The notes below the pieces were generated by a model, which had not been told where the DNA came from, made no database searches, and saw only the letters and a list, made by a program, of their open reading frames with translations. From contig JAXGGA010001676.1 in NCBI GenBank assembly GCA_038373865.1, positions 74,501-138,500 of the forward strand: DNA of 64,000 bases, given 5' to 3'. Position numbers and translations under genes: made by a program. This DNA is from Uloborus plumipes. Taxonomy: Eukaryota > Arthropoda > Arachnida > Araneae > Uloboridae. Shown here piece after piece: positions 5,135-62,383 of this stretch. Position 1 is the stretch's first letter. Every line of letters starts with the position of its first letter.

Positions 5135-5687
5135 TGATAGCGTAAAACGACGTTCATACGATGTTCGATCGAGTTCTCATGCCTAATGTAATATAATGTA
5201 TTAGAATGAAGTTGGTATTCAAATTAGGTGGATGCTTCTCAACTCTTCTGATTCTACTTGCAGTTTTAGGTTGGCATCACCAGATGCCCAATCATATGCA
5301 AATTAAGTTGGTAGATAAATAGTGAACGATTGGACTCGTTCTTTCTCTTTTTTCATCGCTGCCCGCTCAGAGGTAGGTCCGGCATCGGGGCCGGCGGTTC
5401 TTTTCGCCTCTTTTTGATTATGGCCAGGGTTTTCCTTAAGTTTAAATGGTTCGTGTAATATTATTCTTTTAATATTTGACCAATAAATTCTTGGTTATCT
5501 TTTAAATGATTGTCCTACATTTCTCAACCTCAAACACATAGCCATAGCTTCTATCTCGCTGTAACAAAACTCTGCAGTACAAATTGGTATTATATTTGGA
5601 TTAACTCTAGGATCTTAACCTTCTAAACTTAGCTTGTTATTGAAACATGGAAGTTAGTCAAATGAGTTTGGAACCTAGAAGTTATCA
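5135..5687 (+). repeat. CopA 3' LTR
   Basis: Starts TGATAG after the polypurine tract and ends TTATCA, identical at its end to bases 1-15. Length 553. AATAAA at 5482-5487 may be the poly(A) signal; GATAAATA near 5313 is a weak TATA candidate. Confidence 0.85.
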
Positions 5688-31174: not shown

Positions 31175-32730
31175 TTAATCGCACATAACACAACACTTGC
31201 TTCGTAAATAATTCAACCTTGGTTTGGGTAAACTTTTGGTAAACATATCAGCTAGCTGATCTGTACTCGAAACATATTCAAGATTGAAGTTGTGCTGTTT
31301 TATAGTCTCCCGAATGTACTTCAGCTTTATATCTAAGTGCTTCAATCTACCACAATGATTTTCACTCAAAATAGCTTTTATGACTGACTGATTATCTTCA
31401 AAAATAGTTGTACTTATATTTTCATACTTTAGCACCTCTTTAGTCGTATTATAGATTGGAATTAGATCTTGAACAGCTTTTCCCAAGGCTAAAATCTCTG
31501 CTTCAGTTGAAGACAACGCTATTGAAGTTTGCTTTTTAACAGACCAGGTTACAGGACAATTATTTAGCAGTATGATATACCCAGATACAGATTTTCTGTC
31601 TCTCGCATCTGCTCCCGAGTTGGCATCAACAAAAACAGATAACAGGAACATCCAAGTTAGTTTTATGAAAAACTAATTTAAATTTCAAACTTCCTTTTAG
31701 ATATCGTAATATTCTCTTAAGTCCAGACCATGCATCATCCTTTGGCTGCTCTTGCATTTGACTCAAACAATTGACTGAATATAATATGTCTGGACGAGTA
31801 GTCATAACTAAGTAGAGTAATGTCCCGACAAGTTCACAATAAGAACCATGAAACAAGTTCACGATAAGGACCATGAAAGTCCTTCCCATTCATAAAATCA
31901 GGTGATGTTGACTTTGGAGTAAGTGGCGTGTCACAAGGCTTGCAGTCCGTCATTCTAAACCTATCCAGAATAGTCTTGACATATGATTCTTGACTTAGGC
32001 AAAAGCGATCGGGCAGATTCTCAAAACTTATTCCTAGAAATTCTGTTGCAACCTCTGCTTTTGACATTTTAAACTCGCTCATAAGAAAGTTAATTACAAC
32101 TTTAGTTCCCGATTCATTAGAACCAGCAATCAATAAATCGTCAACGTACAGTACCATTACAATTTCACTCTTTTCACTACTTTTCATAAATATGCACGGC
32201 TCACTATTATGTTGTTGAAAATTCAACCGATACACAAAATCCACAAATTTCTTGAACCATTGTCTTGGCGCTTGCTTTAACCCGTACAAACTTGCGAGAA
32301 GTTTGCATACACGACCACTATTGTCATTGTATCCAATCGGTTGTTTCATAAATATTGTTTCGTTCAGTTCACCATTTAGAAATGCTGTTTTGACATCTAA
32401 TGAAAATATTTTCAGTTCCTTTTGATACATTATATTTAACACAAGTCGGAGAGAAGACATGCTGATAACTGGTGAATAAGTTTCAAAATAATTAATTCCA
32501 TGTTTTTAAAGGAATTCTCGAACAACAATCAGCGCTTTGTGGGACTCATCTCTTTTCTTTCGCAAAACCCATTTGCAGGACAATGTTTTCTCATCTTTCG
32601 GCAGTTCGACGAGTTCCCAAATTTTGTTCTTATTCATTGACTCTATTTCTTCACTCATTGCTTTCTTCCAAAGCAATTGTTCTTCATTTGGCAATTTTTC
32701 TATATCCTCAGACAGAGATGCCACTCTCAT
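31175..32730 (-). pseudogene. CopC RT-RNase H, broken
   Basis: From 32730 leftward: RT N-terminus (CKWVLRKKRDE), an in-frame TAA at 32508-32506, RT palm (DVKTAFLNGEL, VLYVDDLLIAG), a frameshift near 31860, the block TRPDILYSVN, a second frameshift near 31640, and RNase H (VDANSGADARDRKS, ALSSTEAEILAL, FEDNQSVI, LADMFTKSLP) to a stop at 31175. The first frameshift lies at an imperfect tandem copy of about 25 bases around 31829-31877, coding the HGPYRELV and HGSYCELV versions of the same segment. Inactive. Confidence 0.9.
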
Positions 32731-36425: not shown

Positions 36426-37943
36426 ATGTTAAGCATGGAGTCTTTGAAGTTAAAAGCATTGAGAGTTAAACGTGCAGGCTTAAGAACTTCTTTTACGAAA
36501 ACTGCGAATGTCGTAAAAACGGAGTTAGTTCAGGAAGAATTTTCGGCAGATTTAGTAAGAGATAAAATTATTAAATTGCAAAATGTGAATTCAGAACTTA
36601 AACTAATTGACAATCAAATTCTTGATTTATTAGTTGAAGTAGAGGGAATTGAAGAGGATGATGTAAATACAGAAATAGAACATTGTGAAGAGTATTCTGA
36701 TCAATTCATAACTTTGTCTCGGGAAGTTAAGGAAAAATTGCAAGTTTCTAAACCAGTTAAAATAGAATCAAGGTCAGTTGATACCTCTGACATTTCTTTA
36801 AATAGAATTAAGCAATATCGACTTCCGAAAATTGAATTGAAAAAGTTTGACGGGGAATTGATAAATTATTTACCGTTTTGGTCTCAGTTTGAAAAAAATC
36901 ACAATGACCCTGATTTGTATGAGAGTGACAAATTTTCATATTTAATTCAGTGTATGAAATTTGGTTCTCGAGCTAGAGAGTTTATTGAAAGTTATCCAGT
37001 AACTTCCGAGAATTATGAAAAGGCTGTTTCAGCCTTAAAAGAACGCTTCGGAAAGCCGGAACTGTTAGTAGAAGTTTATGTCAGAGAATTAATTAAATTG
37101 ATTGTTTCTAATGTTAAAGCTAAGGATAAATTATCTCTCGATAAACTCTATGATAAAATTGAAGCTCACTTGAGAGCTTTGGAATCTTTAGGTTTAAAGT
37201 TGCACGAAAATACGGCTTGGTTGTTTCCTATGGTGGAATCTTGTCTCACCGAGGATGTTTTAAAAGCGTGGCAAAGAAGTTTGCTCTTTAACGAGCCTGA
37301 AGGAGTTGATCTTTCTCGCCTTTCAAATCTAATGAAATTTTTAAAAGCTGAGGTGGAGGGTGAAGAGAGATTAAAACTAGCTCGTAGCGGATTGGAAACT
37401 GTTAGTCAAAAAGAGGGAAATCGCGAAGGGAAAGGAAAGTCTAAATTTCAGAAACAGGCTCATATTTCCACTGCTTCGGGTTTTCTTAATACTAGGGAAC
37501 GAACTTGTCTTTTTTGCGATAAAATGCATGATAGTAAGAATTGTTACGGTGCGCGTGCATTAACTCTTAATGAAAGGATTGCTAACGTTAAAGAAAAAAA
37601 ATGCTGTTTGAAATGTTTAGAGCCGAATCATATCGCAAAGTTTTGTAAACAGTTTATCAAGTGTTTTGCTTGCGGTAAAGCTCATTGCAATATTTTGTGC
37701 CTAGAGTTTAATAAAGTATCGCAGCCAATTGAAGAAAGGCCGGCGGCAGAAATCGTGCATACAACTATTGTCGGGAAAACTTGTACTCCCGAAGTAGCTT
37801 TAATCACTTTGATGGTAAGAGTAGCGGCGGTTAAAGGCTGTAAAGAAATAAGAGCCCTCTTTGACTGTGGGTCTCAAAAGTCGTACATTTTAGAATCATT
37901 AGCCACAGAGCTCGGATTACCTATAGTTTCTAAAGAAAAGTGA
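36426..37943 (+). pseudogene. BelB Gag and start of protease
   Basis: A coiled N-terminal region (residues 1-130) precedes the BEL/Pao Gag core (PKIELKKFDG, FWSQFEKNHND, FSYLIQCM, ALKERFGKP). A cysteine cluster follows (CLFCDKMHDSKNC, CCLKCLEPNHIAKFC, CFACGKAHC), then a retropepsin start (ALFDCGSQKSYI, with D-C-G as the active site). The frame stops at 37943 within the protease and pol resumes in the -1 frame. The expected segment after LGLPIVSKEK seems lost, so a small deletion is more likely than programmed frameshifting. Confidence 0.88.
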
Positions 37944-39545
37944 AATTGTGTTCAGCCAGCTCATATAGGTACCCAGATTTAGAATTTGAATTTTTAGATC
38001 AAGGTATAATTTGTGGGGACATACCACGAGTACCAAAGGGTCCGATATTAAAAGAATTAAAGCGAAATAGAATTTGGCTATCGGATTTGAGAGACAATTG
38101 CCCTAAAATAGAAATGCTCATAGGAAGTGATATTTACGGAAAAATACTAACCGGGCACGTAAAGCAATTGAAAGGGGGTTTAACAGCAATTTGTACAAAA
38201 TTGGGCTGGACTGTTTGCGGTGAGGCTGATTTTGGTAATAAAAGTAAAAATGCTTCAGCTTTATGTACGAGTTTAGCTATGCAGGATTTTAAGATTTCCG
38301 ATCTATGGAGTTTAGAAACTATCAGAATTTTAGATGCGAATCAAAGTTTAAGTAACGCTTCCGAGGAAAGAATTGCTCGAGATCAGTTTTTGAATTCTCT
38401 GTCGCGAAACGAAGAGGGTCGTTACTGTGTGGGGTTACCTTGGTTGGGGTGCAATTTAGAATTGCCCTCAAATCGTCATGTAGCTGAAAGAAGGTTGTTC
38501 AATGTCAACCGGAAACTTAAGTCTTTACAAAAATATGAAGAATACGATAGAATTTTTAAAGAATGGTTAGATGAGGGTGTAATTGAAGTAGTACCAAATG
38601 ATGAAGTGGATTTTAAGGGGCATTATTTACCGCATCATCCAGTTTTCAAACTAAGTAGTGTTACGACGAAGATAAGACCCGTATTTGATGCATCGTGTAA
38701 AGTTAATAGATCCCCATCTCTTAATGACTGTTTGGTTAAAGGTCCAAATCTGATCGAAGAAATTCCGTCGATTTTGCTGAGATTTAGAGAGAAATCAATT
38801 GGTGTTACGTCTGACATTAGGCGTGCATTTTTGCAAATAGAGTTAAAAAAAGAAGATAGGGATTTTTTGAGATTCTTATGGTGGGAGAAAGATAATGTGA
38901 AGATTTTCCGCCATAAAAGAATAGTTTTTGGTGTTCGGCCAAGTCCATTTTTGCTCGGAGGAGTTATTTCATACCATTTGTCAAAAGTACCTCCTTATCA
39001 AAGTTTTATTGCGCAGAAATTAGAAAAGTCATTTTATATTGATAATTGCGTAACTTCGGTAGATAATGAAAGAGATCTTGTGGATTTCGTAAAAATTTCT
39101 ACAGAAATTTTAGCTGACGCTCGAATGGACTTACGTATGTGGACTTATGGTCCAATAGAGAAAAATATTACGTTAGTGCCAGAGTTGAGCTTAGATTCCC
39201 CAACATTAGTGGCGATTCTCAATTTTTACGTAAAGATTATCTAATTTTCTGTCCCCAATAGAGAATCCCGTTCCAGTTTTAGGAATTATATGGGACGGAA
39301 AATTAAATAATCTTTACGTAAAAATTGAGAATGTAGTGGTAAAAAAGGTAACAAAAAGGGAAGTTTTGTCATTAACGCAAACAATATTTGATCCTTTGGG
39401 TTTTTTGACACCTGTTTTGTTACAGGCAAAATTGTTGCTACAGGAAATTTGGGCGCTGAAAATAGACTGGGACACTCCTTTACCCGAAAGTAGTTTGAAA
39501 GAGTGCATACAGTTTGGGAGACTCTCAAATAATACTATGAAATAA
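37940..39545 (+). pseudogene. BelB protease end, RT and A17 region
   Basis: Open from 37940 to 39244: protease tail (IEMLIGSDIYGKILTG), RT (KIRPVFDAS, SDIRRAFLQI, RDFLRFLWW) and palm YIDN. A compound insertion at 39195-39262 then ends the frame. Downstream, the A17-type region (VPVLGIIWDGK, FDPLGFLTPVLL) continues to about 39510, where homology stops. Confidence 0.88.
39195..39262 (+). other. Two-part templated insertion in BelB pol
   Basis: 39195-39214 repeats 20 bases of the LTR/primer-site junction (36214-36233) exactly. 39215-39255 is an inverted copy (39 of 41 bases, both differences transitions) of 39292-39332, which lies 36 bases downstream. Confidence 0.85.
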
Positions 39546-43273: not shown

Positions 43274-43935
43274 TTATTCAAAGTATTGTCCGTCGCTATC
43301 TATACATTTTTGCCATTGTTCTGGCAATTTGTGGATTCCGCGCCATAAGAACTGTTGATCTTTTGAGGCAAACCAATCATTGAGTCATTTTCGTACAGCT
43401 TCGTAAGAAGTCAAGCGCTGCTCAGTAAGTGCATATCCCATCAATGCAAACAAGTAATAATCGGATGGGGCAAGGTCCAGTGAGTAAGCCGCATGCAAAA
43501 GAATCTCCCAACGGAACGACTCTATCGTTCCCTGGAGCCGTTTTGCTTTGTGTGCTGGTGCGTCGTCATGCAGCAAAATTACCTTGTGTTATCTTTGTTG
43601 GTATTTTGGTCGTTTTGCACTCAAAGCTCGATTCAAATTGGTCATTTGTTGTCGGTAGCGTTCAGTATTGATAGTTTCCCCAGGTCTTCGTCCAACAAGG
43701 CTTGCAGGTCAGCGTCTTCAAACTTTTCCGGTGGTCTTCCACGTTCTTCGTTCCTCACGTCAAAATCGCCACTTCTGAACCGTTTGAACCACTCGAAACA
43801 CTGTGTTCTACCGAGAGCATGCTCACCATACGCCTCCACAAGCATTCGATGTGATTCGGCTGCAGTTTTCTTCAGATGAAAACTGAAAACTAGTGATGTC
43901 GGCAAATCGTAATTTGTTGGCACAAAACTCGACAT
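43274..43935 (-). pseudogene. Mariner transposase, internally deleted
   Basis: Minus strand, start near 43935 (MSSFVPT). The N-terminal DNA-binding part (LKKTAAESHRMLVEAYGEHA) runs to LLDEDL near 43685. The sequence then jumps to the INTERYRQQ block and HDDAPAH, DLAPSDYYLFALMG and the C-terminus. The deletion removes the segment with the first catalytic Asp and shifts frame. A TGA also replaces a Trp-like codon after YEAVRK. The final stop is 43274-43276. Cannot be active. Confidence 0.9.
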
Positions 43936-44094
43936 GTTTATCTCTAATAAATTAATGCTACTGAATGAAACTCGTGTTATTGTGAGTTGGAAATCTTTGT
44001 CGCATATCAATACAATAACAAGACACCGCTGACGTGATGAGTCGGTAACTACATCGACATCTAGCGCCACTTATGGGAAATTCCGGTTTCATAC

Positions 44095-44468
44095 TGTTAC
44101 GCAACGATCGGGTAAGTATACCGACGCGTTCTCCCGCAGTCACATAGCGCGTTGTTTTCTCCGATCGGCGAGGAGGCGTCGCGCTCATCGCTCTTCCCGG
44201 GAGAGCGGAAGATTCGCTCTGACGCGTGTGCGTGACGCGTTAAGTGCGCTTGTCGCTGATTGGACGAGACACTTCATGCGCCGTTCGGCTTTGCTTCGCG
44301 GCGACTTATGTATAAAACGTGGAGCGGCTGGGATGCCGAGGCTGGATCCGCACTTTGATGTCAGATAGATGCCGGCTTTTGTAAATACGTTCATATTAAC
44401 TAAGTATGTTAATAAAACTTCTTAAGTTACTTTTAAGTCGAGTTGGATTTATTTGCAAAAGTATAACA
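44095..44468 (+). repeat. CopD 5' LTR, CpG-rich
   Basis: TGTTAC...ATAACA, 374 bp. TATAAAA at 44311. By eye about 35-40 CpG in the first 300 bp, against AT-rich surroundings. The 3' LTR lacks 48 bases found here between about 44223 and 44273. Confidence 0.92.
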
Positions 44469-44469
44469 A

Positions 44470-44483
44470 GGTCATGTGCCCAG
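44470..44483 (+). promoter_or_regulatory. CopD primer-binding site (diverged)
   Basis: GGTCATGTGCCCAG matches the initiator tRNA anticodon-arm complement with two differences. Confidence 0.6.
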
Positions 44484-44583
44484 GTACCCTTCAACTGCGA
44501 TGTTCTGAAATAAAAAGAAGGGGGGCCAATGAGTTCGGAAATTTAATTATTCAGTCGGTCCTGCATTTTGAAAAAAGGAAAAA

Positions 44584-47500
44584 ATGGCAGACTCTGGCAT
44601 CGAAAAGTTGTCCTCGAGCAACTACAGCACGTGGTGCACTGATATCAAGGCCTTACTGATGGAACGCGGCTGTTGGAAGTTTATAATAAATGCGGAAACC
44701 AAGTTAGATGTCGATGCTTCAACAAAGGACGCCGAGAAATTCAATTAACACAAAGATAAAGCTTACTCAACAATTTACCTCAACATTTCGAAGGAATACC
44801 GCCCATTGATTTCTGAAACAGACGATGGAGCCAAGGCATGGGAGCTACTGAAGCAACACTTCACTCCAAAGACGCGGGCCCGAATAGTTTCACTCCTAGA
44901 TGAATTCTTTAGCTGCCGTTACCAAGACAGGGAAGGAATTGGAATCTTCGCATCACGTCTTCGCTTCATAGTATCGCAACTGAACAATGCAGGTAAAACT
45001 ATCGAGGACTTGTTCCAGGCATTTCAACTACTAAGATACTTACCAGAGGACTTTCAAGGTATCGTTCAAAATCTTTACAGACTGTCCGACAAGGACTTCA
45101 CTTTCGATAACGTGTTAAAAGAACTAATTGCCGAAGAAAGTCGACTGAAACAGTCGTCCTTGGACTTTCAAAGGGTTAATAGCGTTTATGTAAAAAGTAA
45201 TTTGAAAGTGCCTTTTGTAAATAATGTAAATGATTTTTCTAGTAGTTATGTTAAAAATAATAATGCTAATTCAAATCGACGGAAATTCAAGAATAAATTT
45301 AGGAAAATAGGTCCTTGTTTTCGATGTAATAAATTAGGGCATTTGAAGAAAGATTGCAGTATGGGGCAAGAAAATGAGGGGAAAAGTGATAAAAAGTTAA
45401 ATTTTATTACTGAAGCCTTTATTAGCAATGAGGTCTCTGAAAAGGAGAAATTATTGTGGGTCTTTGATACCGCAGCAACTGCCCATTTCTGTAATGATTT
45501 GGACCTATTTACTTCATATAAACGTGTAACTAATACAAATATGTCACTAGCTGTAGGCAATAGTACTGTGGAAGCAGTCGGTATAGTCGATATTTATTTT
45601 ATTAGTGATGGCAAAAAGCAGTCGATAACACTGCATAATGTTATGTATTCTCCCAAGTTAAAACGAAATTTACTATCTGGTCCTTTGTTCGATAAAGGAG
45701 GAGCATCTTTTATTGGTAAAAATGGTAGTATAAAAGTCATTTCAAGTGATGGTAATGTCATTTTTGTAGCTCGAAAACTTAATGGGTTATATTTTTGTGA
45801 ACCTAAATATCCCAAAATAAATCCTGCTAGTGTTAGTAAAAATACTAATAATTTGGTTTCTGCAAATCCAGAAAATGTAAAAATTTGGCATGACCGTTTT
45901 TGCCATGTAAATAATAAGTATATTATTGAAACTAGTAAAAACGATAGCGTTAGGGGGATGAAAAAATTAGAAAATGAAAAACTAGATTGTGACACATGTA
46001 AGATAGCTAAATCTAAGAGTTTACCTTTTAAAAGTATTGGTAAAATAAGGTCTGAACGCCCTTTAGAATTAGTTCATATGGATGTTTGTGGGCCTTTGCC
46101 TCAAGAGTCGATAAATAAAAAACGCTATTTTCTAACCATTATCGATGACTTTTCCAGAAAAGTAACTGTTTATCCTATGTCGGAAAAAGGGGAAGTATTT
46201 GACTTATTTAGAAGATTTCAAACTAGAGCAGAAAGATTTTTAAATTTGAAATTAATAAATGTTAGAACTGATAACGGCATGGAGTTTTGTCATGATAAGT
46301 TTAAAAAGTTTCTCGAAACAGAGGGGATAAGGGCAGAAAGGACAAATACATATTCTCCCCAGCAAAATGGTGTCGCAGAACGTTTTAACTATACTGCTCT
46401 AGATGCCATAAAAGCTATGTTAAAGCACAGCAATATGGACAGCTCATTTTGGGATGAGGCTTTACTTTGTTTTTCCTATACATGGAACAGACTGTGTCAT
46501 GGCAATAACAGTAAGACCCCATTCGAATTGTATAGTAAAAAGAAACCATCGGTAAAACACCTAATTACATTTGGCTCAACTGCATATGTAAATGTCCCCA
46601 AACAATTAAGAAACAAACTAGAAATGCGAGCTAAGAAGGGTGTAATGGTGGGGTATGGGTTATATACAAGGGGGTATCGTATTTGGATGCCTGACGAAAG
46701 GAAAATTAAAGAAACGATTAACGTAAAATTTGACGAAAGAATGCAGGTCAATACATTGAATCCCGACCCTGAAATCTCAAGGGACAATTATATTTATCGG
46801 GAATCGGAAGAATCCTCGGAAGAATCAGACTCGGACGACGAATCTGACAGGGAGGAACCTGAAAAACTTTCGGCAAAAGAGACTAAATGGATAAGGCAGG
46901 CCGTACCGAGGAAGGACGGGTCGCGGACAGATATCTATTACACCACTGAAAACTCAAATATTCGTTTAAGGTCACCTAATGACGTAGAAAAATACTGTCA
47001 AAAACATAACATTAAATTTTATAAAGATATGTTTGATTTTAGTGGCAAAAATACTTATTCAGGTAAAGTTAAATCCCAAACTCCCGTTAAAGATAATTTT
47101 CAAAGTGCAGCAGAAAATTTTGCGGAAGTGTGTCACGTTGAGGTGCAAATTCCCAGAAACTATAGTGAAGCTTTAAAATCACCCAAAAAAGATAAATGGC
47201 AAAATGCTATGGAAGATGAAATAAAAGTACTGCATGAGCGGCAAACTTGGGATTTGGTGCCGAAACCGAAAAACGCGGATGTTTTAGGGTGCAGGTGGGT
47301 ATACACAATCAAAAAGAATGATAAAAATGAAATTGTGAGATACCGCGCCCGTTTAGTTGCTCAAGGTTATAAGCAGCAAAAGGGGGTTAATTACGACGAA
47401 GTTTTTAGTCCCGTTGTAAATTTTTCTATTGTTCGTATGTTTTTCTCAATATTTGTATGTTTCTTAGGATGGTCACATTGTCAAGTTGACATCAAATGTG

Positions 47501-48708
47501 CCTATTTGTACGCGAATTTAAAAGAAAACGTTCTAATGTCACAACCTAAAGGCTTTAATTCTACTGAAAATCCAGAGTATGTATGTTCTTTAAACAAAGC
47601 AATTTATGGACTGTGTCAAAGTGGCAGAGAATGGTTTTTTGAGATTAACAATGTTTTAACCGATTTATGTTTTTCTAAGCTTGAATGGTGCAATTGTGTC
47701 TATTTCTTCCAAAATAAAATAATCTTGTTATTGTATGTCGATGACATAATAATCTTTGGTGAAACTGATGAATGTATTAAAATGATAATTAGTAAGCTAC
47801 AATCAAAATTTGACCCTAAAGTCATGGGTAGAACTCGTAAACTCCTCGGAGTTACGTTTGAAGAAACTAATCATAAATTGTATATTCATCAGAGGGATTA
47901 TATTGAACAAATTTGTGAAATGTATAAAAGTTACAATATTCCATTTTCATCCGTGCCTATGGCAAAAGGTACCCTGTTAACAAAATTGGACTGCCCAAGT
48001 TCTGAAATGGAAAGAAAAGAAATGAACAAATTACCGTATAGAAACATAATTGGTTGTTTGGCATATATAGGAAGTCGTACCCGACCTGATATTAGCTTTG
48101 CTATTAATATCTTATCACAATTCCAAAGCAATCCAGAGATCGTTCACTGGAACGCATTATTAAAACTTTTGGGGTATGTAATTCAAACTAGAGAATATAA
48201 ATTAGAACTTTCAAAAGTAAGTAACTTAAATATAAACTGTTACAGTGATTCAGACTTTGCAACATGTCGAGATGACAGAATTTCTGTTGGGGGGATAATT
48301 CTATTTTTGGACCAAGTCCCCATAATTTGGAGAACCTTTAAGCATAAATGTGTCAGCCTTTCGTCCATGGAGGCTGAATATATTACTTTAACAGATGCTT
48401 CTAAAGAGCTGCTATGGATAATTCGAATTTTAAAAGAATGTGAACATTTTGGGTTTTTCAAAAGGGAATTAAATTCGAATATTTTGTTATCGGATAACGC
48501 AGCTGCAATAGATTTCTCCAAATCTCCGATAGAGAATAACCGAACAAAACATATTCACGTACGTTATCATTTTCTTCGAAATTTAATTTATGATAATATC
48601 TTTAAATTGGTCTACGTCAATACTAAAAATAACCTTGCAGATATATTCACTAAACCTCTGACTAAAGATGGAGTTTTGAAGTTTGTTAAGGCTATTTTTG
48701 TGATGTAA
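44584..48708 (+). pseudogene. CopD Gag-protease-integrase-MBD-RT-RNase H, one nonsense codon
   Basis: ATG 44584 opens Gag (IEKLSSSNYSTWCTDIK). TAA at 44746-44748 interrupts it; the same frame is then open to 48708. Numbering from 44806: zinc knuckle CFRCNKLGHLKKDC, protease FDTAAT, HHCC domain, integrase D426, D489, E525 (DD35E), acidic linker, MBD-like module 695-751, RT with LLYVDDII, RNase H ending ADIFTKPL. Unlike CopA and CopE there is no stop between MBD and RT. A single point change could explain the Gag stop; its context is not a known leaky one. Confidence 0.9.
46888..47058 (+). other. MBD-like domain coding segment in CopD
   Basis: Residues 695-751: W695, R702-K-D-G, D709-I-Y711-Y, L-R722-S723, Y730, FDF 743-745. 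The five methyl-CpG contact positions are kept. Here the module is an internal part of one long polyprotein. Confidence 0.72.
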
Positions 48709-48863
48709 GTTTTGTTTCAGGTGTGACATGGACTAATTAGTTTTATATGTGAAAGTAATTGCATATGGTTTAATTTTGTTTTGTAAACTTATGTTCTTTT
48801 TCAATTAAAATATTTTGAATCTTATGAATGTAAGCGTTCCGTGAATGCGGGAGGGGGGGCCAT

Positions 48864-49039
48864 TGTTACGCAACGATCGGGTAAGTATACCGACGCGTTC
48901 TCCCGCAGTCACAGAGCGGGTTGTTTTCTCCGATCGGCGAGGAGGCGTCGCGCTCATCGCTCTTCCCGGGAGAGCGGAAGATTCGCTCTGACTTGCATGC
49001 GCCGTTCGGCTTTGCTTCGCGGCGACTTATGTATAAAAC
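48864..49039 (+). repeat. CopD 3' LTR, left part
   Basis: Follows a purine tract (48849-48859). Cut just after TATAAAAC by CopE. Confidence 0.92.
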
Positions 49040-49688
49040 TGTTAGACAAATGCATTAGTTAATCTCACTCCTTACCTTAATATTATCTTGTTTAAAGAAC
49101 TAAACTTGTATCAAACATTGCTTATGTAACTCCTACTATCAACTGACTAGAGTGCATCGTTCGGAACTGGGATTCCCGTGCACGTGTAGTAGGCGGGGCT
49201 AGTTCATGACGCAACAGCGGTGTTGTCTCGTCATGTGCCAGCAGAACCAATCAGTGATGACACGTGTGTAGGGCGTTGCTGTGTGTCACGTGTTTTACGT
49301 TGTTTCAATATGCAAATGTAGCAGGGTATAAAATTGAAGATTCGACTTTCGATCTTCACTTGCTTTTTCGATCGGCCACATTGCGTGTGTCGCATTTTTG
49401 AGTTTGTTTCCCCGCTGGAAAGGGGTAAACTCTTTTATTTTTTCGGAGCAGTGCTCGTTTTTATAATGTTTCAAAATCAACTTTAAAGTTTACCGGTGAT
49501 ATTCTCCCGGATGTTAGGTCATAATTAAATGTTTCACTAGTTAAATTGATCGTTGGTCATCGCTTCAAAACTTCGTTGATGTTTATGGGAAAATAAAGAT
49601 AAGTTTTGTTTTTTAAAATGAACTTAGTCATCCTTTAGTATCATTAACTCTGCTGTTAATTATAAGAAATGGGTTTATCCCATTATCA
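49040..49688 (+). repeat. CopE 5' LTR with promoter elements
   Basis: TGTTAG...TTATCA. TATAAAA at 49327-49333 is preceded by three CACGTG E-boxes (49181, 49261, 49287), suggesting bHLH-type control. AATAAA near 49592. Confidence 0.93.
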
Positions 49689-49689
49689 A

Positions 49690-49700
49690 GGGTTATGGGC
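49690..49700 (+). promoter_or_regulatory. CopE primer-binding site
   Basis: GGGTTATGGGC, 11 bases matching the initiator tRNA-Met anticodon arm complement, one base after the LTR. Confidence 0.7.
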
Positions 49701-49858
49701 ATTGTTCTAACAGCCATGTTCCCACTACGGCCCCATAAGCCCGAAGTTAAGAAGACGTCTTTGCCCCGATGCTGGCGATAGCATCCGACGGGGGGGCCAA
49801 CATTCGATTTATTTTTTTGTGAAACCTTCTTTCTTCAATCGACTGAGATAATATTACG

Positions 49859-52570
49859 ATGGCATTTTCAACGATAAGCGTGGAGAAATTAAAAGAAGAT
49901 AATTATTCTGAATGGTCATCGGACATGATGTACCTACTGATGGAGAGAAACCTGTGGATGATCGTCAATGGAAAAGAAAAAGCTCCGACAATCACGGCCA
50001 AAGAAGGAGAAGAAAAGGATATCAAGGAATATGATAAAAGAAAACGATCTGCCCTCTCTCTAATATATCTTCACATCGATTCCAAGTACAGAAAACTGAT
50101 GGGGAAAACAGAAGATCCAGCTGAAGCATGGACACTTTTGAAGAATCACTATATACCTCATAACAGGTGCATGGAAATGCATACCTTCACAGAATTTATG
50201 TCCTGCAGAAGGGAAGAAAATGAGAAGATCAATTTGTTTGCAGCTCGTCTAAAAGACATTTTTGAAAGGATCATCGCCTTCGATGAGAAGGGAATATCCG
50301 AAAAATTCCTATGTTATCAACTACTTCTACATCTGCCCGACAAATTTGACATGGTTTGCCAGAATATTTTGAGACAAAAAGATGAAGACTTCAAGTATGA
50401 GAAGATCGTGAGCGATCTCGTGGCTGAAGAAAACCGGCTTTTCCTGAAAGAAAAGGATTCCGAAGAAATTGTAGCCAAGTCCTCCTTTGTGAAAAGCAAG
50501 AAACATTGGAAGAAGAGAGTGAAATGTCATTTCTGCGGAAAGCCGGGTCATCTTAAAAGGAATTGCTGGTCGTGGAAAAGTGACCAAGGTATCCAGAGCA
50601 AAGAAGATTCATCCAGGAATAGCAGCCCATCACGATTTCAACAACACCAGAGAGGAAGATCCGACTGGAAGTCTCCAAGAAACAACGAGAAGAGGTCCGG
50701 ATCGCCTTCTACAGAACGTTGTAAGTACTTTTGTTCCTTTATTTGTGAGGCTAATCTGGTGAACTTTAAGGATGATAACCTTTGGATTTACGACACGGCA
50801 GCAAGTAATCACTTTATCAAGGACAAAAGAGATATCATAAATTTTGTACCATTAAAGGATAAAGAGTTGGCTGTAGCAGTTCAAGGAAAGAAATTCCCGA
50901 TTGAGGGGAAAGGACAGGTTCTACTAAAATTTAATAATTACAAAATTTTGCTGGAAGATGTGATGTACTCACCTAATCTAAGAAGAAATTTATTGTCAGG
51001 TCCAAAATTTGATATGGGGGGTGCAACTATTAAGGGAGGTAAAGGTGTAATAGAAATTTCAGGAAGAAAAGGTACTATAATAGCTAAACTCAAAAATGGA
51101 GTCTATGTAGTAAAACCTGATAAATCTAGTCGAAATTCAAGCACTAATTGTCAAAATATTAATCCTACGTGTCAGAAAAACTCTAGTCATTTTGTAAAAA
51201 TTGAAACTTCTAATACAGAAATTCCCAAAGTAGAAAAACTTGAGAATTGGCACAAGAAATTTGCTCATGTTAATACGGAAAGTATTAAAAGAACATGTGA
51301 TTTACAAAGTGTTAGGGGAATGCCTAATCTTAAAAATGCCAAAATTCATTGTGAAAGTTGTAAACTAGGGAAGCTTAGAAGGGTTTCTTTTAAACCAATT
51401 AATAGAATTAGATCTAATTCTCCAGGAGAATTACTTCATTGTGACACATGGGGACCCTGTAACTATAAGGGAAGAAACGGGGAAAGGTATTTTTTGTCAA
51501 TTATTGACGATTTTTCTAGGAAAACTTCACTTTACCCAATGAGGGATAAAACCCAAGTTGCTAAAATATTAATCCGGCATATTATAAGATCAGAGAGATT
51601 TCTTGATAGAAAAGTAAAATTTGTCCGTACCGATAATGGTAAAGAATTTGATAATCAAACTTTTAGAGATTTTTGTCAAAAATCAGGAATCCATCACGAA
51701 TTTACTAATACGTTTAGCCCAGAAATGAATGGGGTTATTGAAGTGTACAACCGTACAGTGGCAGACGGTGCCAGGGTTCTATTGGAAGAAAGCGGGCTTG
51801 ATAAAAGTTTTTGGCCAGATGCCATGCTTCATTTTACCTACACCTGGAACCGGGTATGTCATACTGACCAAAACAAAACTCCATTTGAATTATATGGAGG
51901 CAAAGTTCCTTCTGTTAAACATCTAAAACCTTTTGGGGTGTTGGGGTATGTTTTTATACCCAAACAACATAGAAATAAATTAGATGCAAAATCAAAAAGG
52001 GGAATACTTATTGGTTACGCGTTCAAAACTAAGGGATATCGTATTTGGTTTCCTGATAATGACAAAATCACTGAAACTATTAATGTTTCGTTTAAAGAAA
52101 ATTGTTTCTATAAAACTGAATTTCCTAATAAGAGCAGTGGAGCAGTGTTGGGCCACATCACTTGGTCTGAAACCCTCGATTCAGATAATGAATCTGGTGA
52201 TAAAATGATTCATCTCCAAATTCCGGAATTACCGGAAGTCCCAGTAGAAAGTGAGATTGAAAGTGAATCAGAGGGGGAAGATAAAAAGTTATCAGATGCT
52301 TCGTCAGACGAAGAAAATGAGAAAATACTGCGGGAAGTAATTTGGGAAAGAAAAGTTGTACCGCGAAAAGACGGGACTAGAAATGATATTTACTTTTACG
52401 AAAAACATAAAAATACCAGATTGAGGTCATTGAATGATATCAAAAATTATTGTAACAGAAATGATATTGTATATAATGCTCAATTGTTTAGTTTTAAAGG
52501 TTCTGATCAGTATGAAGGTGATATTCCTAAGGGGGGACAAGTTTTAAATGCAGATTATACACAAGCATGA
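49859..52570 (+). CDS. CopE Gag-protease-integrase-MBD polyprotein
   Basis: ATG 49859 (ACGATGGCATT context). Gag core in the first 200 residues (VEKLKEDNYSEWSSDMMYLL), zinc knuckle C223-C226-H231-C236, protease YD312TAAS, HHCC domain (WHKKFAH...CESCKLGK), integrase D529, D592, E628 (DD35E). An acidic linker (SEIESESEGED) precedes the MBD-like module 829-885. The frame ends at UGA 52568-52570 and continues as RT. Open throughout; likely functional. The terminated product would be an integrase with a C-terminal MBD. Confidence 0.94.
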   Translation: MAFSTISVEKLKEDNYSEWSSDMMYLLMERNLWMIVNGKEKAPTITAKEGEEKDIKEYDKRKRSALSLIYLHIDSKYRKLMGKTEDPAEAWTLLKNHYIPHNRCMEMHTFTEFMSCRREENEKINLFAARLKDIFERIIAFDEKGISEKFLCYQLLLHLPDKFDMVCQNILRQKDEDFKYEKIVSDLVAEENRLFLKEKDSEEIVAKSSFVKSKKHWKKRVKCHFCGKPGHLKRNCWSWKSDQGIQSKEDSSRNSSPSRFQQHQRGRSDWKSPRNNEKRSGSPSTERCKYFCSFICEANLVNFKDDNLWIYDTAASNHFIKDKRDIINFVPLKDKELAVAVQGKKFPIEGKGQVLLKFNNYKILLEDVMYSPNLRRNLLSGPKFDMGGATIKGGKGVIEISGRKGTIIAKLKNGVYVVKPDKSSRNSSTNCQNINPTCQKNSSHFVKIETSNTEIPKVEKLENWHKKFAHVNTESIKRTCDLQSVRGMPNLKNAKIHCESCKLGKLRRVSFKPINRIRSNSPGELLHCDTWGPCNYKGRNGERYFLSIIDDFSRKTSLYPMRDKTQVAKILIRHIIRSERFLDRKVKFVRTDNGKEFDNQTFRDFCQKSGIHHEFTNTFSPEMNGVIEVYNRTVADGARVLLEESGLDKSFWPDAMLHFTYTWNRVCHTDQNKTPFELYGGKVPSVKHLKPFGVLGYVFIPKQHRNKLDAKSKRGILIGYAFKTKGYRIWFPDNDKITETINVSFKENCFYKTEFPNKSSGAVLGHITWSETLDSDNESGDKMIHLQIPELPEVPVESEIESESEGEDKKLSDASSDEENEKILREVIWERKVVPRKDGTRNDIYFYEKHKNTRLRSLNDIKNYCNRNDIVYNAQLFSFKGSDQYEGDIPKGGQVLNADYTQA
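52343..52513 (+). other. MBD-like domain coding segment in CopE
   Basis: Residues 829-885: W829, R836-K-D-G, D843-I-Y845-F, L-R856-S857, Y864, F-S-F 877-879. The five contact positions are kept; FDF has changed to FSF. Confidence 0.7.
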
Positions 52571-52576
52571 CTAGAC
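52568..52576 (+). promoter_or_regulatory. Candidate stop-codon readthrough site UGA-CUA-GAC (CopE)
   Basis: In-frame TGA between MBD and RT with CTAGAC after it; frame open to 54142. Same eight bases TGACTAGA as CopA, with different bases just upstream (CAAGCA versus AACTTA). Confidence 0.72.
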
Positions 52577-54142
52577 TCTGATATTGTAATTCCAAACACG
52601 TATAAACAAGCTATGAAATCTAAAGAAAGTGCTGAATGGCTTGCAGCGATGCAAAATGAGATTTCGACGATGGAAGATCGTCAGGTTTGGGATTTAGCAG
52701 TCCATGAAGGAAATATCGAACCAGTGAAATCCAGGTGGGTTTATACTGTGAAAAAGGATGAATTGGGTCAAATTGCTAAATATAAAGCACGATTATGTGC
52801 AGTAGGAAGCTCTCAAGTAAAATATCAATCCTATAATGACACATACAGCCCAGTCATTAATTTCAGTATAATTCGATTTTTCTTTACATTGCTAGTTGTT
52901 GTGCAAAAATGGAAGCATATTCAATGTGATGTTCGTAGTGCGTATCTGTATGCCCCTATTGATCAACCTATTTTTATGTGTCAACCTCCCGGATTTATTA
53001 TTAAAGGTAAAGAAAACCTGTATTGTAAATTAAAAAGAGCAATCTATGGTCTACATCAAAGCGGGAGATTATGGTATCTTGAAATTGATAATGTTTTAAT
53101 TAAATTAGGGTTTAACAAATTGTCAGGTTGTAATTGTGTATATGTTTTTAACTCTAAAGTGATTTTATTATTGTACGTTGATGACATTGTTCTATTTGGT
53201 AAATGTGATAATGATTTAGAGAAAACTTTAAGTATTCTGAAAAAGCATTTTGACTTAAAAGTGTTGGGAAAAACCAGAAAATTACTTGGTGTGGAATTTG
53301 AGGAAACGGGGGAATTTTTGAAAATTCACCAAACTAGCTACATTCTAGAAATCTGTGAAAGATTTAAGAATTTTAAATTCCCGTTTTCGTCACTTCCCAT
53401 AAGTAAAGGTACTGTTTATTCCACCTTAAATTGTCCACAAACCGAATGTGAAATTAAAGAAATGTCAAAAATACCTTACAGAAACCTTTTAGGTTGCCTT
53501 TCATTTTTAGCTAATCGTACTAGACCAGACATAAGTTACGCCGTAAATATTTTCAGTCAATTTCAAAATAATCCCGGATTAGATCATTGGAATGGATTAT
53601 TAAAACTCTTAGGATATGTAGCAAACACTAGTCATTTAAAATTGAATTTAAGGTGTAATAAAATACAATTGGTAGTTTACTCTGACGCTGATTTCGCGTC
53701 AAACCGAGATGACAGAACTTCTTTGGGAGGCCAATTAGTGTTGTTAGATAACGCTCCTATCGCTTGGCGTACTTTTAAAGAAAAGAGTGTTAGCCTCTCA
53801 ACGATGGAGTCAGAATTTGTAGCTATGACTGAAGCTGTAAAAGAAATCTCTTGGTTTGATCGCATTTTATCAGAATGTGTTAAAATGAGTATTATTACTG
53901 AAAATGTTGTAAAATCTTTATTACTAGTGGATAATCAGGCTACTATCGATTTTGTTAAGTCGCCAATAGAAAATTATAGAACTAAACATATAGATGTTAA
54001 GTTATTTTTTGTTCGTGACTTAATAAATAAAGATTTTTTTGATATAAAGCATGTTAGAAGTAAAAATAATAAATCTGATATTTTTACTAAACCTCTAACT
54101 CGTATCGAACTCAATAGATTTTGTGAGGATATTTTTCATTGA
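52571..54142 (+). CDS. CopE reverse transcriptase-RNase H (readthrough extension)
   Basis: Begins LDSDIVIPNTYKQAMKSK after the stop; internal ATG 52613 lies within conserved RT sequence. RT motifs SRWVYTVKKDE, CDVRSAYLYAPI, LLLYVDDIV; RNase H motifs YSDADFASNRDDRTS, STMESEFVAM, LVDNQATIDF, NYRTKHIDVK, SDIFTKPL. Intact to 54142. Confidence 0.93.
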   Translation, partial: LDSDIVIPNTYKQAMKSKESAEWLAAMQNEISTMEDRQVWDLAVHEGNIEPVKSRWVYTVKKDELGQIAKYKARLCAVGSSQVKYQSYNDTYSPVINFSIIRFFFTLLVVVQKWKHIQCDVRSAYLYAPIDQPIFMCQPPGFIIKGKENLYCKLKRAIYGLHQSGRLWYLEIDNVLIKLGFNKLSGCNCVYVFNSKVILLLYVDDIVLFGKCDNDLEKTLSILKKHFDLKVLGKTRKLLGVEFEETGEFLKIHQTSYILEICERFKNFKFPFSSLPISKGTVYSTLNCPQTECEIKEMSKIPYRNLLGCLSFLANRTRPDISYAVNIFSQFQNNPGLDHWNGLLKLLGYVANTSHLKLNLRCNKIQLVVYSDADFASNRDDRTSLGGQLVLLDNAPIAWRTFKEKSVSLSTMESEFVAMTEAVKEISWFDRILSECVKMSIITENVVKSLLLVDNQATIDFVKSPIENYRTKHIDVKLFFVRDLINKDFFDIKHVRSKNNKSDIFTKPLTRIELNRFCEDIFH

Positions 54143-54624
54143 ATTTCGTAGATAAGGGGGGAGGATATAAATTTTTGTGCAACCTTTGTGTCGGATTGAA
54201 TTGTGCAAGTCAATTTTTAAATGTGTTTTTGAATTTTTCATGTGTTTTTTCTTGGTACTTCATTAGTGTATAAATCGTGAAATTTTAATATTTTATATAG
54301 TAAAGTATAGTATGTAACATTGCTAAGATTGCTTAAAATCTGATATATATTTATAATTGCTCAAGAATATGTTTATACATAATGCTTTATTAATTGTTGC
54401 ATGTGAGTATTGTTCTTATAGATTAAAACGAATGGTATGGACTTTAAAAGAGGATGTGATCTTATTGTGTACCAAGAAGAAATATTGTTTGTTACTTTTT
54501 ATTGGATATAAAATGGAAATGTTTTTGTAATTTTTAGCGGTGACCAATGGTAGTTGATAATATATTAGATCTTTTCAGTGAGAAAATTTGATTCTATTTG
54601 GTAAGCTAGTGAGAGGGGGGGCAT
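54143..54624 (+). other. CopE 3' untranslated region
   Basis: AT-rich. Purine tracts at about 54154-54165 and, next to the LTR, 54611-54621. Confidence 0.75.
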
Positions 54625-55273
54625 TGTTAGACAAATGCATTAGTTAATCTCACTCCTTACCTTAATATTATCTTGTTTAAAGAACTAAACTTGTATCAAA
54701 CATTGCTTATGTAACTCCTACTATCAACTGACTAGAGTGCATCGTTCGGAACTGGGATTCCCGTGCACGTGTAGTAGGCGGGGCTAGTTCATGACGCAAC
54801 AGCGGTGTTGTCTCGTCATGTGCCAGCAGAACCAATCAGTGATGACACGTGTGTAGGGCGTTGCTGTGTGTCACGTGTTTTACGTTGTTTCAATATGCAA
54901 ATGTAGCAGGGTATAAAATTGAAGATTCGACTTTCGATCTTCACTTGCTTTTTCGATCGGCCACATTGCGTGTGTCGCATTTTTGAGTTTGTTTCCCCGC
55001 TGGAAAGGGGTAAACTCTTTTATTTTTTCGGAGCAGTGCTCGTTTTTATAATGTTTCAAAATCAACTTTAAAGTTTACCGGTGATATTCTCCCGGATGTT
55101 AGGTCATAATTAAATGTTTCACTAGTTAAATTGATCGTTGGTCATCGCTTCAAAACTTCGTTGATGTTTATGGGAAAATAAAGATAAGTTTTGTTTTTTA
55201 AAATGAACTTAGTCATCCTTTAGTATCATTAACTCTGCTGTTAATTATAAGAAATGGGTTTATCCCATTATCA
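54625..55273 (+). repeat. CopE 3' LTR
   Basis: Same length and, where compared, same sequence as 49040-49688 (offset 5585). Confidence 0.95.
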
Positions 55274-55278
55274 AAAAC

Positions 55279-55428
55279 GTGGAGCGGCTGGGATGCCGAG
55301 GCTGGATCCGCACTTTGATGTCAGATAGATGCCGGCTTTTGTAAATACGTTCATATTAACTAAGTATGTTAATAAAACTTCTTAAGTTACTTTTAAGTCG
55401 AGTTGGATTTATTTGCAAAAGTATAACA
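55279..55428 (+). repeat. CopD 3' LTR, right part
   Basis: Resumes after the AAAAC duplication and matches the 5' LTR from its GTGGAGCGGCTGGG to ATAACA. Confidence 0.93.
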
Positions 55429-55447
55429 CATACTTACACACCTGGTA

Positions 55448-56304
55448 CAGTTTCGCACGATCGTGTCCTTAAACTCATTCGCGCGTACCATGCCAAGTAC
55501 ACATCAATTTTGAATTCAATACAAAAACAGATGGGTGAACATCTTCACGCCAAAATAGAAGCATTCACTGAGGATGCAAAACGCAAATTGTTTGACATCT
55601 TGTCGTGTAAATGTGAATTTTCCACTTGCAGGTGTGAAAAGTCTCGTAGGGTTCCTGTTCAAGAACAAGCATTTCTTCATGACCAGCGAACTGTCAGAAA
55701 AATGATCATAAGCATTGTTGACCTAATCTCAACAAAAAAACTTCGACGGAAGGCAGAGAGGAAATCAAAAGTCAATGCTCACCTATCTAAAGTTTCAAAA
55801 CAAACTGAAAGTGAAATGCCAATGAGTTTAGAATCAACTTCAAGTTCATCAGAAATGGAGATGAATGATGACACTCTCATGGCTACTTCTTCAACTTTTA
55901 GAGCAGAAGTTGAGAAGCCAACATGTTCCACGAAGCAACCATCTAGCTCTCATCAAATGCGAGTTCCTTTGCCAACAGTAGCAAGGGAATGTGACAGATA
56001 TGGTCTTTCTGATAGAGCTGCAGCATCAAAAGTAAGTAACTTAAATATAAACTGTTACAGTGATTCAGACTTTGCAACATGTGACAGATATGGTCTTTCT
56101 GATAGAGCTGCAGCATCAATCGCTAGTGCGGTGCTTAAGGCTCTTCGATACCCCTGCCCAAAATCTGAAACGGCAAAAACACGAAATCGGTGGCAACACA
56201 GTGGGTGTATCTGGGAGTGTTTAACTCGAAATTTTCTCACTGCTAATTGGTCTGATTTCATGATAGACAGCGTCATCAATGAGTTCTTGAATGGAGAGCC
56301 ATAA
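55448..56304 (+). pseudogene. Unknown ORF, C-terminal part, after the mariner
   Basis: Resumes the frame broken at 43195. Has a helical segment (RVLKLIRAYHAKY), a cysteine cluster (CKCEFSTCRC), a basic stretch and a Ser-rich acidic region. An SDRAAAS block is duplicated around a piece of CopD (55991-56118). After SAVLK near 56137 the sequence looks unrelated to the preceding block. The true start is not the ATG at 55366, which lies in the CopD LTR. Function unknown. Confidence 0.65.
55991..56118 (+). repeat. 38-bp direct repeat flanking a 52-bp piece of CopD
   Basis: 55991-56028 equals 56081-56118. Between them, 56026-56082 equals CopD RNase H bases 48211-48267 (57 of 57 including junction overlaps). 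Confidence 0.93.
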
Positions 56305-58270: not shown

Positions 58271-60065
58271 GATATATATATATCAATACTAGCAGTACCC
58301 GCACGGCAATGCCCGTGCGAAAAATGTAAAGAAAGTCAACTGAATAAATTTAAATTCACTCCACCCTCTTAAGTAAAATCATTATATTCTTTAATTCAAA
58401 TGTGCACCACGACCTTTTAAAATATATTGATGACACTTTTAATGCCATTTCAATTTGTAGTGCTCAATGCGAGGATTATTTTAGTTTTAAAGACTTCTTT
58501 CTTCTTTTCGTGTGTGTCTGACGAACTTATTTATTTTTAGCGAAATTTTTACGTTCCAATGGAACTTTTGACACAACTGTAGAGCCAAGATTTTCGAAAA
58601 CTCTCAACGACCACAGCAATATTGCCCTTGAAATTTAATATAATTCACCGATTTAACCTTAATTTCAATGTAAAATTGGTCGCCAAATCTAAATTTATTA
58701 ACATAGGGAACCGATTGTATCAGGTAGATCAGCCACAACCATTCTTCCATGATTTTAATGTGAACATTAAAAGGAAAGAAATATGTCTTTCGTACCATCG
58801 CTTTGAAGTGATTACAATCTAACAGTGACCCTCAAATAATCAAGATTTCACTGGCCGGGAAGTTTGGAAAATTTCCCGATTGTTGCCAAAATTTAAGACG
58901 CCAAATATGAAAAGTAACTGAATAGCGGTGTTACAGAAAATGTCAGAATGGAACTATTATTATTAAAAATTTAGTGATGTTGGCATTAAATACATGTTTT
59001 AAACATGCAATAACTCTTTAGACTGCAAACAACTACTGTTCCTTCCCAGACAGTTTTCGTTTTCTTTGATTTGGAGAAAGTAGTGTTTCACTGGCTGGGA
59101 GGTTTGGTAAATTTCCTGATTGTCGCCAAACTTTACGACGCCAAATGCGAAGAGGAACTGAATAGCCATCCCTAAATTTTTAACAATAATAGTTCCATTG
59201 TGACATTTTTGGTAACAATGAATTTTGAGGAAGTCATCTTAATAAATTTAAATTCACTTTAACCCCTCTGAAGACAAATTATTATATTCTTTAGTTCAAA
59301 TGCGCTCCACAACCTTTTAAATTCCACTTAAAGTCATGTTAAAGTTTAAATCAATTCGCCAAATAAATATAAGAGACAGAAAGTTAAGTAAGTAACGGGA
59401 GATATTAATTAATCAAATTGAATAAATTTTCAAGGCTTAAATCTATACGCTAATTTAAACCACAAAGTAACTTCAGGGCCAAAAGAGCTGCTGATCTGGA
59501 AAATGGATCTAGTGTTTCAGTTTTGCGTACAGAGTTAGGCCTTGAAAATTGATTAAATTTGATTAATTAATATCTCCTGTCCTAATTAACGGACAGAAAC
59601 GTGCTAAAACTTTTCTTTTTCAGAAAAAAAAAACCCTTTCCAACGATATATAATGTTTTGGGGTGTGGGAAGGTTTTCTCCCCTCAATTATGGCGGATAC
59701 ACCAAAAATGAGACTAATTAATTAATTTAAAAATAACTAATTCGAAATGAAAAATTTGGCCTTCGAGGTGCACGAGGGCGGGGTACGTTCGAATTTTTGA
59801 GCCAAGTTTCAGGTCTGTAGGTGCTGTGGGGACTTCTGGCCAGCGGTTACAAACGAACAAACACCGTCATCTTTATATATATAGATTTTTTAAAAATTTT
59901 CTAATTCAAAAATCGAAAATCGGGCTTCGAGGTCTGGTGGCCAGCCCCTTTGTGCTTCAGTGTAAAAAATTCCAGGTCCCTGCGTGCGATAGATTTGGCT
60001 AGAGAGCTCGGTCAGACAAATGGACAGACAGACAGACACATTACACTTGCTTTTATTATTATAGA
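58271..60065. repeat. Composite diverged repeat ending in TTATTATTATAGATA
   Basis: Starts near CTAGCAGTACCCGC and ends after CAGACAGACAGACA. Blocks near 58340 and 59230, and 58850 and 59090, are related. Resembles widespread arthropod dispersed repeats; class not determined. Confidence 0.4.
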
Positions 60066-61912: not shown

Positions 61913-62383
61913 ATGGAGAAGTGCAGTGTTGGAGAAGTTACTCAGAGTGATTGTCATTTGTTTAGTTTTGTCAAGAAAAAGGACACAAAGAGTATTACTA
62001 ATCTCTCTGAAACTGAGTTAACTCTATTGAAATTAAGAATAGATACAAGCAACGAGTTAAAAACTATTTGTCTTCATCATCAATGTGTATATTTGCAAAA
62101 GTATGAATTTTTACAAAAGTATTGTTGTGATCCTTTTCGAATACACAAGACTTCCATTCAGAAAGGACTTTGTGTTGTATCTTTAAAGCAAAGTAGATTA
62201 ATTTCAGCAAAGGGTTGTCAAGTGAAACCAGGACAGAAACTTTGTTCAAACTGCAAGAACAAGTTTTCTCAACTGAATGATGATATTGAGGAAAACAGTG
62301 AAAGCCGAAATTCCACCAAAGAAGAAGATGAAGGATTGAATCCTAATGAATTAAAAAATGTACAAAAAAAAAAGATCAATTGA
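61913..62383 (+). CDS. Transposase-like protein, N-terminal Cys/His region
   Basis: ATG 61913. Contains a cysteine/histidine-rich region (CLHHQCVY, KYCCDPF, KGCQVKPGQKLCSNC) that probably binds zinc. The frame ends at TGA 62381-62383 just after a run of ten A (62364-62373); the rest of the protein continues in the +1 frame from 62373. A one-base change in the A run is the simplest cause. Confidence 0.7.
   Translation: MEKCSVGEVTQSDCHLFSFVKKKDTKSITNLSETELTLLKLRIDTSNELKTICLHHQCVYLQKYEFLQKYCCDPFRIHKTSIQKGLCVVSLKQSRLISAKGCQVKPGQKLCSNCKNKFSQLNDDIEENSESRNSTKEEDEGLNPNELKNVQKKKIN

Follow-up and report, generated by a model that had tools for sequence, protein, structure and literature searches.

Three Copia polyproteins (CopA, CopD and CopE) encoded in a 64,000-nt stretch of the genome of the spider Uloborus plumipes (GCA_038373865.1, contig JAXGGA010001676.1, positions 74,501–138,500 of the forward strand; hereafter, the window) carry a 57-residue module between the SH3_retrovirus domain and the reverse transcriptase, which we consider, with a probability of about 95 %, to be a domain of the methyl-CpG-binding domain (MBD) family joined to the Copia integrase. 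The three copies are as follows:

46888–47058, forward strand: MBD-like module of CopD, 57 residues (Pfam MBD, 23.7 bits as a bare domain)
2864–3034, forward strand: MBD-like module of CopA (Pfam MBD, 23.2 bits as a bare domain)
52343–52513, forward strand: MBD-like module of CopE (Pfam MBD, 21.4 bits as a bare domain)

The Pfam matches run in the order gag, zinc knuckle, Pol_BBD (a protease-type region), gag_pre-integrs, rve, SH3_retrovirus, acidic linker and module, with the zinc knuckle passing its cut-off in CopD alone of the three polyproteins. The translations, together with the rve and SH3_retrovirus matches, agree with a first-pass annotation, made from the sequence alone, in which the same module of about 57 residues was placed behind the integrase in the three elements; the order that it described (W, R-x-D-G, D-I-Y-[FY], R-L-R-S, F-x-F) and its five contact residues (R, D, Y, R and S) are present in all three modules. 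As it also stated, the linkers preceding the module differ widely, with pairwise identities of 29–36 % (CopD-CopA, 29 %; CopD-CopE, 35 %; CopA-CopE, 0.36) against 45–60 % in the module (0.60 for CopA-CopE). A tblastn search identified no further copies in the window, the next best match having an E-value of at least 0.24.

Pfam MBD (PF01429, curated cut-off of 21 bits) was the sole convincing match for the module, and the three bare domains score above its cut-off. The same family was matched by 11 of the 11 family representatives, and a profile built from these representatives retrieved human MBD1 as its top match among the PDB sequences. The fold predicted by AlphaFold for the CopD module (75 residues, pLDDT of 86.3, the last 10 residues with low confidence) is MBD-like, and MBD/TAM chains occupy rows 1–27 of the 42 obtained by structure alignment. 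For the relative P0010, the model (836 residues, pLDDT of 64.4 overall) also shows a folded module, which forms blocks with pLDDT of 82–85; the low-confidence stretch that precedes it (residues 637–746) includes part of the SH3-like domain and is, thus, no proof of disorder. The proposal in the first-pass annotation that an MBD-fold domain is appended to the integrase has therefore held up in the Pfam and PDB profile searches, in the predicted fold and in the conservation of contact residues.

Several results weigh against this assignment. The E-values from the comparison of the profile with PDB sequences are only ca. 0.01, and SUMO2 appears in the same search with an E-value of 0.065, ranked between MBD1 and MBD3. 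Likewise, all the structural alignments have Z below 8, and a Foldseek search with the AlphaFold model gave no match at E ≤ 0.001; the CopA domain alone, used as a single-sequence query, gave no match to PDB sequences. Scanned whole, the polyproteins fall under the MBD cut-off (18.4 bits for CopD, 20.7 for CopA and 15.2 for CopE), as do the four relatives scanned in the same way (16.5, 16.0, 18.6 and 20.1 bits). These scores, 15.2–20.7 bits in all seven whole polyproteins, and the modest PDB E-values would be expected if the resemblance to an MBD were due to chance or convergence in an ordinary integrase C-terminal tail. Nevertheless, independent methods concur, with MBD matches in 11 of 11 representatives, MBD1 as the top PDB sequence and the first 27 structural rows, so that we ranked chance resemblance last and consider it very unlikely.

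We took R22, D32, Y34, R44 and S45, which we assume from structure work on MBD1 with DNA, as the residues of MBD1 that contact methyl-CpG, and placed their equivalents by profile alignment with MBD1 over the 11 families. The equivalents of R22, R30, D32, R44 and S45 are kept in all 11 families, and those of V20 and Y34 in nine. The full R/D/Y/R/S set, whose loss from relatives was looked for, is therefore intact in 9 of the 11. Of the 59 columns, 15 are invariant, and these include four of the five contact residues (chance 0.013), in a test where conserved motifs are favored because the relatives were gathered by shared words. This conservation bears on the idea that the module is a protein dock that, like the MBDs of SETDB2 and MBD5/6, would bind a chromatin protein of the host and steer the integrase via this partner; since few positions are as conserved as those that contact DNA, we regard such a dock as improbable.

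The case for methyl-CpG recognition is weakened by other features of the module. The L1 loop, between the first two strands, contacts DNA in canonical MBDs and is typically long in methyl binders, although this is not demanded of all Pfam MBD members; in the module it falls three residues short of its length in MBD1 and MBD3. Additionally, P0010 and P0025 have F in place of Y34, and the module carries a low net charge, of +1 to +7. In TIP5, the TAM domain also has a short corresponding loop, lacks many of the methyl-contact residues and does not prefer methylated DNA (PMC4446428). The TAM of BAZ2B is likewise without methyl preference, and MBD3, MBD5 and MBD6 are cited as proteins without specific binding to methylated DNA (PMC10783490). 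The module could then be a TAM-like binder of RNA, single-stranded DNA or any DNA, blind to methylation, with a role in packaging, retention of the cDNA or general contact with chromatin. TAM chains do appear at structural rows 7 and 10–12, and the short loop of BAZ2A/TIP5 and BAZ2B is common to the Copia module; however, many methyl-contact residues are missing from TAM, and the module retains R22, D32, R44 and S45 in every one of the 11 families and Y34 in nine of them. TAM also has an extra N-terminal helix and a C-terminal alpha/beta motif (PMC4446428), not seen in our model, which contains no helix of at least four residues before the first strand, none after the helix at 37–46 and, at the C-terminal end, where the last 10 of the 75 residues have low confidence, only a short strand (66–68). 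We thus set TAM membership aside because the contact residues are retained, and keep a TAM-like function as an unlikely, yet the most credible, of the alternatives.

With MBD1, MeCP2, MBD2 and MBD4 (PF01429), the module shares the methyl-CpG contact set, the profile match and, by prediction, the fold, and differs from them in its location in a retrotransposon polyprotein, in the shortened L1 and in the replacement of Y34 by F in 2 of the 11 families. As read from its sequence, the module is a combination of MBD-type contact residues and a TAM-like loop. Methyl-CpG specificity of the module is no more than plausible, because TAM domains, in which the loop is short as well, do not prefer methylated DNA.

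Conservation of the module tracks that of the integrase: mean identity over the 55 family pairs is 54 % in the module and 57 % in the last 240 integrase residues, and the two are correlated (Mantel p = 0.0005), as expected under a single capture followed by inheritance. The ratio of nonsynonymous to synonymous substitutions (dN/dS) of the module is 0.17 for CopA-CopE and 0.31 for CopD-CopE, with no value for CopD-CopA, and constitutes weak evidence because many comparisons are saturated at synonymous sites. The 11 named relatives, among 17 returned, are all from the spider Araneus ventricosus. None of the 17 carries a precomputed MBD label and, since the whole polyproteins score under the Pfam cut-off, the domain may have been overlooked. 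No relatives of the module were found in the IMG/VR and GTDB contigs. Integrase and reverse transcriptase searches of these collections returned 5, 0 and 16 loci, with no Copia reverse transcriptase at E ≤ 1 by tblastn and no module better than E = 0.22 in the same loci; they therefore gave no unbiased count of Copia elements free of the module.

The structure of the three elements, all with integrase ahead of reverse transcriptase, is detailed below:

44806–48708, forward strand: CopD polyprotein open reading frame (ORF), with integrase, module and reverse transcriptase in one frame
46054–46359, forward strand: CopD integrase core, rve (Pfam, residues 417–518)
46537–46740, forward strand: CopD SH3_retrovirus (Pfam, residues 578–645)
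46741–46887, forward strand: CopD acidic linker from SH3 to module (19 of 52 residues are D or E, by slightly different linker bounds)
47242–47961, forward strand: CopD reverse transcriptase, RVT_2 (Pfam, residues 813–1052)
44095–44468, forward strand: CopD 5′ long terminal repeat (LTR)
48864–49039, forward strand: first part of the CopD 3′ LTR, split by CopE; the rest is at 55274–55428
44090–44094 and 55429–55433: CopD target duplication, CATAC
49040–49688, forward strand: CopE 5′ LTR, 649 bp, identical to 54625–55273
54625–55273, forward strand: CopE 3′ LTR, 649 bp, identical to the 5′ LTR
49035–49039 and 55274–55278: CopE target duplication, AAAAC
49859–52570, forward strand: CopE first ORF (gag, protease-type domain, integrase, module), ending at TGA
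52571–54142, forward strand: CopE reverse transcriptase and RNase H, in frame with the first ORF
194–3085, forward strand: CopA first ORF (gag, protease-type domain, integrase, module), ending at TGA
3086–4651, forward strand: CopA reverse transcriptase and RNase H, in frame with the first ORF

The elements show the hallmarks of Ty1/Copia retrotransposons, namely gag, an integrase ahead of the reverse transcriptase and, in CopD and CopE, LTRs with a 5-bp duplication; no chromodomain was found among the Pfam matches of the polyproteins, whose reverse transcriptase is of the Copia type (RVT_2). CopE lies within the 3′ LTR of CopD, adjoining TATAAAAC, forming a nested pair (44090–55433) with both target duplications intact. 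Its identical LTRs and its target duplication indicate a recent insertion with an intact module. The CopD LTRs differ by a missing piece plus a few bases, and its gag has an in-frame TAA at 44746–44748, upstream of the ORF at 44806–48708. CopA sits at the edge of the window, where no LTRs or target duplication were seen for it, and its start matching that of relatives is the ATG at 404.

On the evidence of sequence and predicted fold, we give about even odds to a role of the module in tethering the integration complex to DNA that is rich in CpG or carries methylated CpG, thereby affecting targeting. The module would remain on the mature integrase as a C-terminal reader, held by the acidic linker; its conserved arginines and D, Y and S would grip CpG in the target DNA, and this grip by an integrase-borne module would bias the site of cDNA insertion. 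The two insertion sites that could be delimited are rich in CpG: the 200 bp around the empty site contain 19 (CopE) and 13 (CopD) CpGs, versus a window mean of 5.2, and only 0.6 % and 2.1 %, respectively, of the 200-bp stretches in the window reach those counts. With 500-bp flanks, 0.7 % of the stretches reach the CopE count and 6.9 % that of CopD. Nonetheless, the excess around CopD fades with flank length (6.9 % at 500 bp, 7.7 % at 1000 bp), and these are only two insertion events, one of them (CopE) within the CpG-rich LTR of another element. Moreover, the observed/expected CpG ratio is ca. 1.5 at both empty sites, as calculated from slightly misplaced sites (one base off for CopD, and including both duplication copies for CopE), which argues against heavy germline methylation at either. 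A CpG-binding tether, or plain insertion in open promoters rich in CpG, accounts for these sites better than a tether that strictly requires methylation.

Spiders methylate CpG: approximately a third of genic CpGs, versus 5 % of intergenic ones, are methylated in Stegodyphus dumicola (PMC6409797), and methylation of transposable elements is moderate in Parasteatoda tepidariorum (PMC7343188). A methyl-CpG reader would thus direct insertions mainly to gene bodies. Methylation of some transposable elements in spiders (PMC6409797, PMC7343188) is also compatible with counter-silencing, in which the integrase-borne MBD would cover the element's own methylated LTR and exclude host MBD proteins, with no choice of target; the CopD LTR is indeed rich in CpG near the CopE site (40 CpGs in 500 bp). 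However, fusion to the integrase and the low amount of nuclear integrase to be expected make this a poor design, and the observed/expected CpG ratio is not low in CopA (1.01) or CopD (0.92), so that we hold counter-silencing to be most improbable.

The window as a whole has an observed/expected CpG ratio of 0.85. We did not adopt CpG depletion as a sign of germline methylation of the window, because the signal is weak overall and strong at 60–64 kb alone. There, positions 60001–64000 are strongly depleted (CpG 0.41, TpG+CpA 1.27) and could be an old methylated region; this segment overlies an ORF of at least 547 aa (from 62358 to the end of the window) without Pfam matches at E ≤ 0.01.

In CopA and CopE, a single TGA ends the first ORF 16 and 18 codons past the module, respectively, and the same frame resumes through the reverse transcriptase:

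3083–3089, forward strand: CopA in-frame stop, TGA-CTAG (readthrough signal predicted from sequence)
52568–52574, forward strand: CopE in-frame stop, TGA-CTAG (readthrough signal predicted from sequence)

Only 6 of the 1,320 TGAs on the forward strand of the window occur in this context. The same seven nucleotides, UGA-CUAG, are common to four mammalian genes with efficient readthrough (OPRL1, OPRK1, AQP4 and MAPK10), and UGA-CUA by itself gives 1.5 % readthrough (PMC4132726). The 26 codons from the stop to the next ATG show protein identities of 0.58 (CopA-CopE), 0.46 (CopA-CopD) and 0.31 (CopE-CopD), and from this cross-element identity they appear to be translated, with weaker support from CopE-CopD, for which dN/dS over these codons is 1.1, indicating no constraint. 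CopA and CopE thus combine the stop context with coding constraint after the stop, and a leaky stop is, judging from these features, probably the normal route to the reverse transcriptase in both. Independent initiation of the reverse transcriptase at the first ATG appears less likely, given the 0.58 identity between CopA and CopE in the 26 codons upstream of it. Decay was not preferred as the cause of the stops, which consist of one TGA each, at nearly the same place and both as TGA-CTAG, and the CopE LTRs are identical. No convincing downstream RNA structure that could aid readthrough was found (z of −0.74 in CopE and −1.52 in CopA).

Among the relatives, the proteins P0010, P0012, P0014, P0016, P0024 and P0025 end 13–33 residues past the module (counted from its residue 59), and CopD, P0009 and P0011 have no stop behind it. 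The stop layout may therefore be common to 8 of the 11 families, six of them judged from protein ends, which a gene model or the end of a contig could mimic. Genuine readthrough would mean that gag, protease and integrase-MBD are produced in excess over reverse transcriptase: most ribosomes would halt at the leaky TGA-CTAG, and the minority that read through it would make the reverse transcriptase. An in-frame UGA inside a retrotransposon coding region also occurs in Tca2 from Candida, an element that we take to be of Copia type. Tca2 has a gag-UGA-pol layout, and in yeast the sequence flanking its UGA failed to direct readthrough (PMC2194720); in CopA and CopE, by contrast, the stop falls between integrase-MBD and reverse transcriptase, and readthrough is predicted. 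Searches of the open-access literature found no Copia in-frame stop between integrase and reverse transcriptase among the titles and abstract lines of the matches listed, and nothing linking UGA CUA to retrotransposons.

Taken together, it is possible, if somewhat less than an even bet, that an animal Copia clade captured a DNA-methylation reader on its integrase and aims its copies at methylated or CpG-rich chromatin, with the dose of the reader set by a leaky stop directly behind it. Chromoviruses already provide a known case of an LTR-retrotransposon integrase that ends in a chromatin reader, which is a chromodomain on Ty3/gypsy elements instead of an MBD-like domain on Copia; what sets the present elements apart is the MBD-type fold on the integrase. 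The targeting segment of the Ty1 integrase is a short, Pol III-binding peptide, in contrast to the folded domain, from a family of DNA readers, of these Copia elements; the Ty5 integrase has a targeting segment as well. To our knowledge, an MBD fold is not known on any integrase, and the known chromatin-steering integrases, with the chromodomain as the classic case, read histones or proteins. The retrotransposons of dinoflagellates and charophytes that carry DNMTs also captured a DNA-methylation protein domain, in their case a writer in LINE- or DIRS-type elements, instead of the reader-type module of Copia (PMC5890265). Neither MBD nor methyl-CpG appears in the main text of that article or in a short article on accessory domains (PMC6338049), and no MBD on Copia was found among the matches listed from the open-access literature, a search that left subscription journals and preprint servers uncovered.

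A reader of DNA methylation on an integrase would, if confirmed, be a new route of steering by host chromatin, and these would be the first LTR retrotransposons known to pick their targets via the DNA mark that many hosts use for transposon silencing. It would also allow a test of whether DNA methylation itself serves transposons as an address in animals whose methylation is patchy and gene-centered, and the module is a small natural candidate for aiming integrases. Readthrough between integrase and reverse transcriptase would be a second mechanism, open to a simple reporter test.

The window contains other remnants of mobile elements. Two more Copia remnants, at 5678–6358 (forward strand) and 31214–32682 (reverse strand), retain reverse transcriptase or RNase H only, with no integrase or module; the one on the reverse strand could not be used as a control because only reverse transcriptase and RNase H remain. 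BEL/Pao-type remnants occur at 22893–25472 (reverse strand) and 36426–39244 (forward strand), with Peptidase_A17, DUF1759 and a weak RVT_1; LTR pairs were not detectable for either, so their insertion sites could not serve as CpG controls. Just upstream of the CopD insertion site there is a 142-aa ORF (43642–44070, reverse strand), presumably similar to the N-terminus of a mariner transposase. Finally, 57 nt of the CopD RNase H region (48211–48267) are exactly copied at 56026–56082, inside a 312-aa ORF. The copy overlaps, at both ends, a 41-nt direct duplication (55989–56029 and 56079–56119), and the whole segment, 55989–56119, resembles a break that was repaired with a templated patch.
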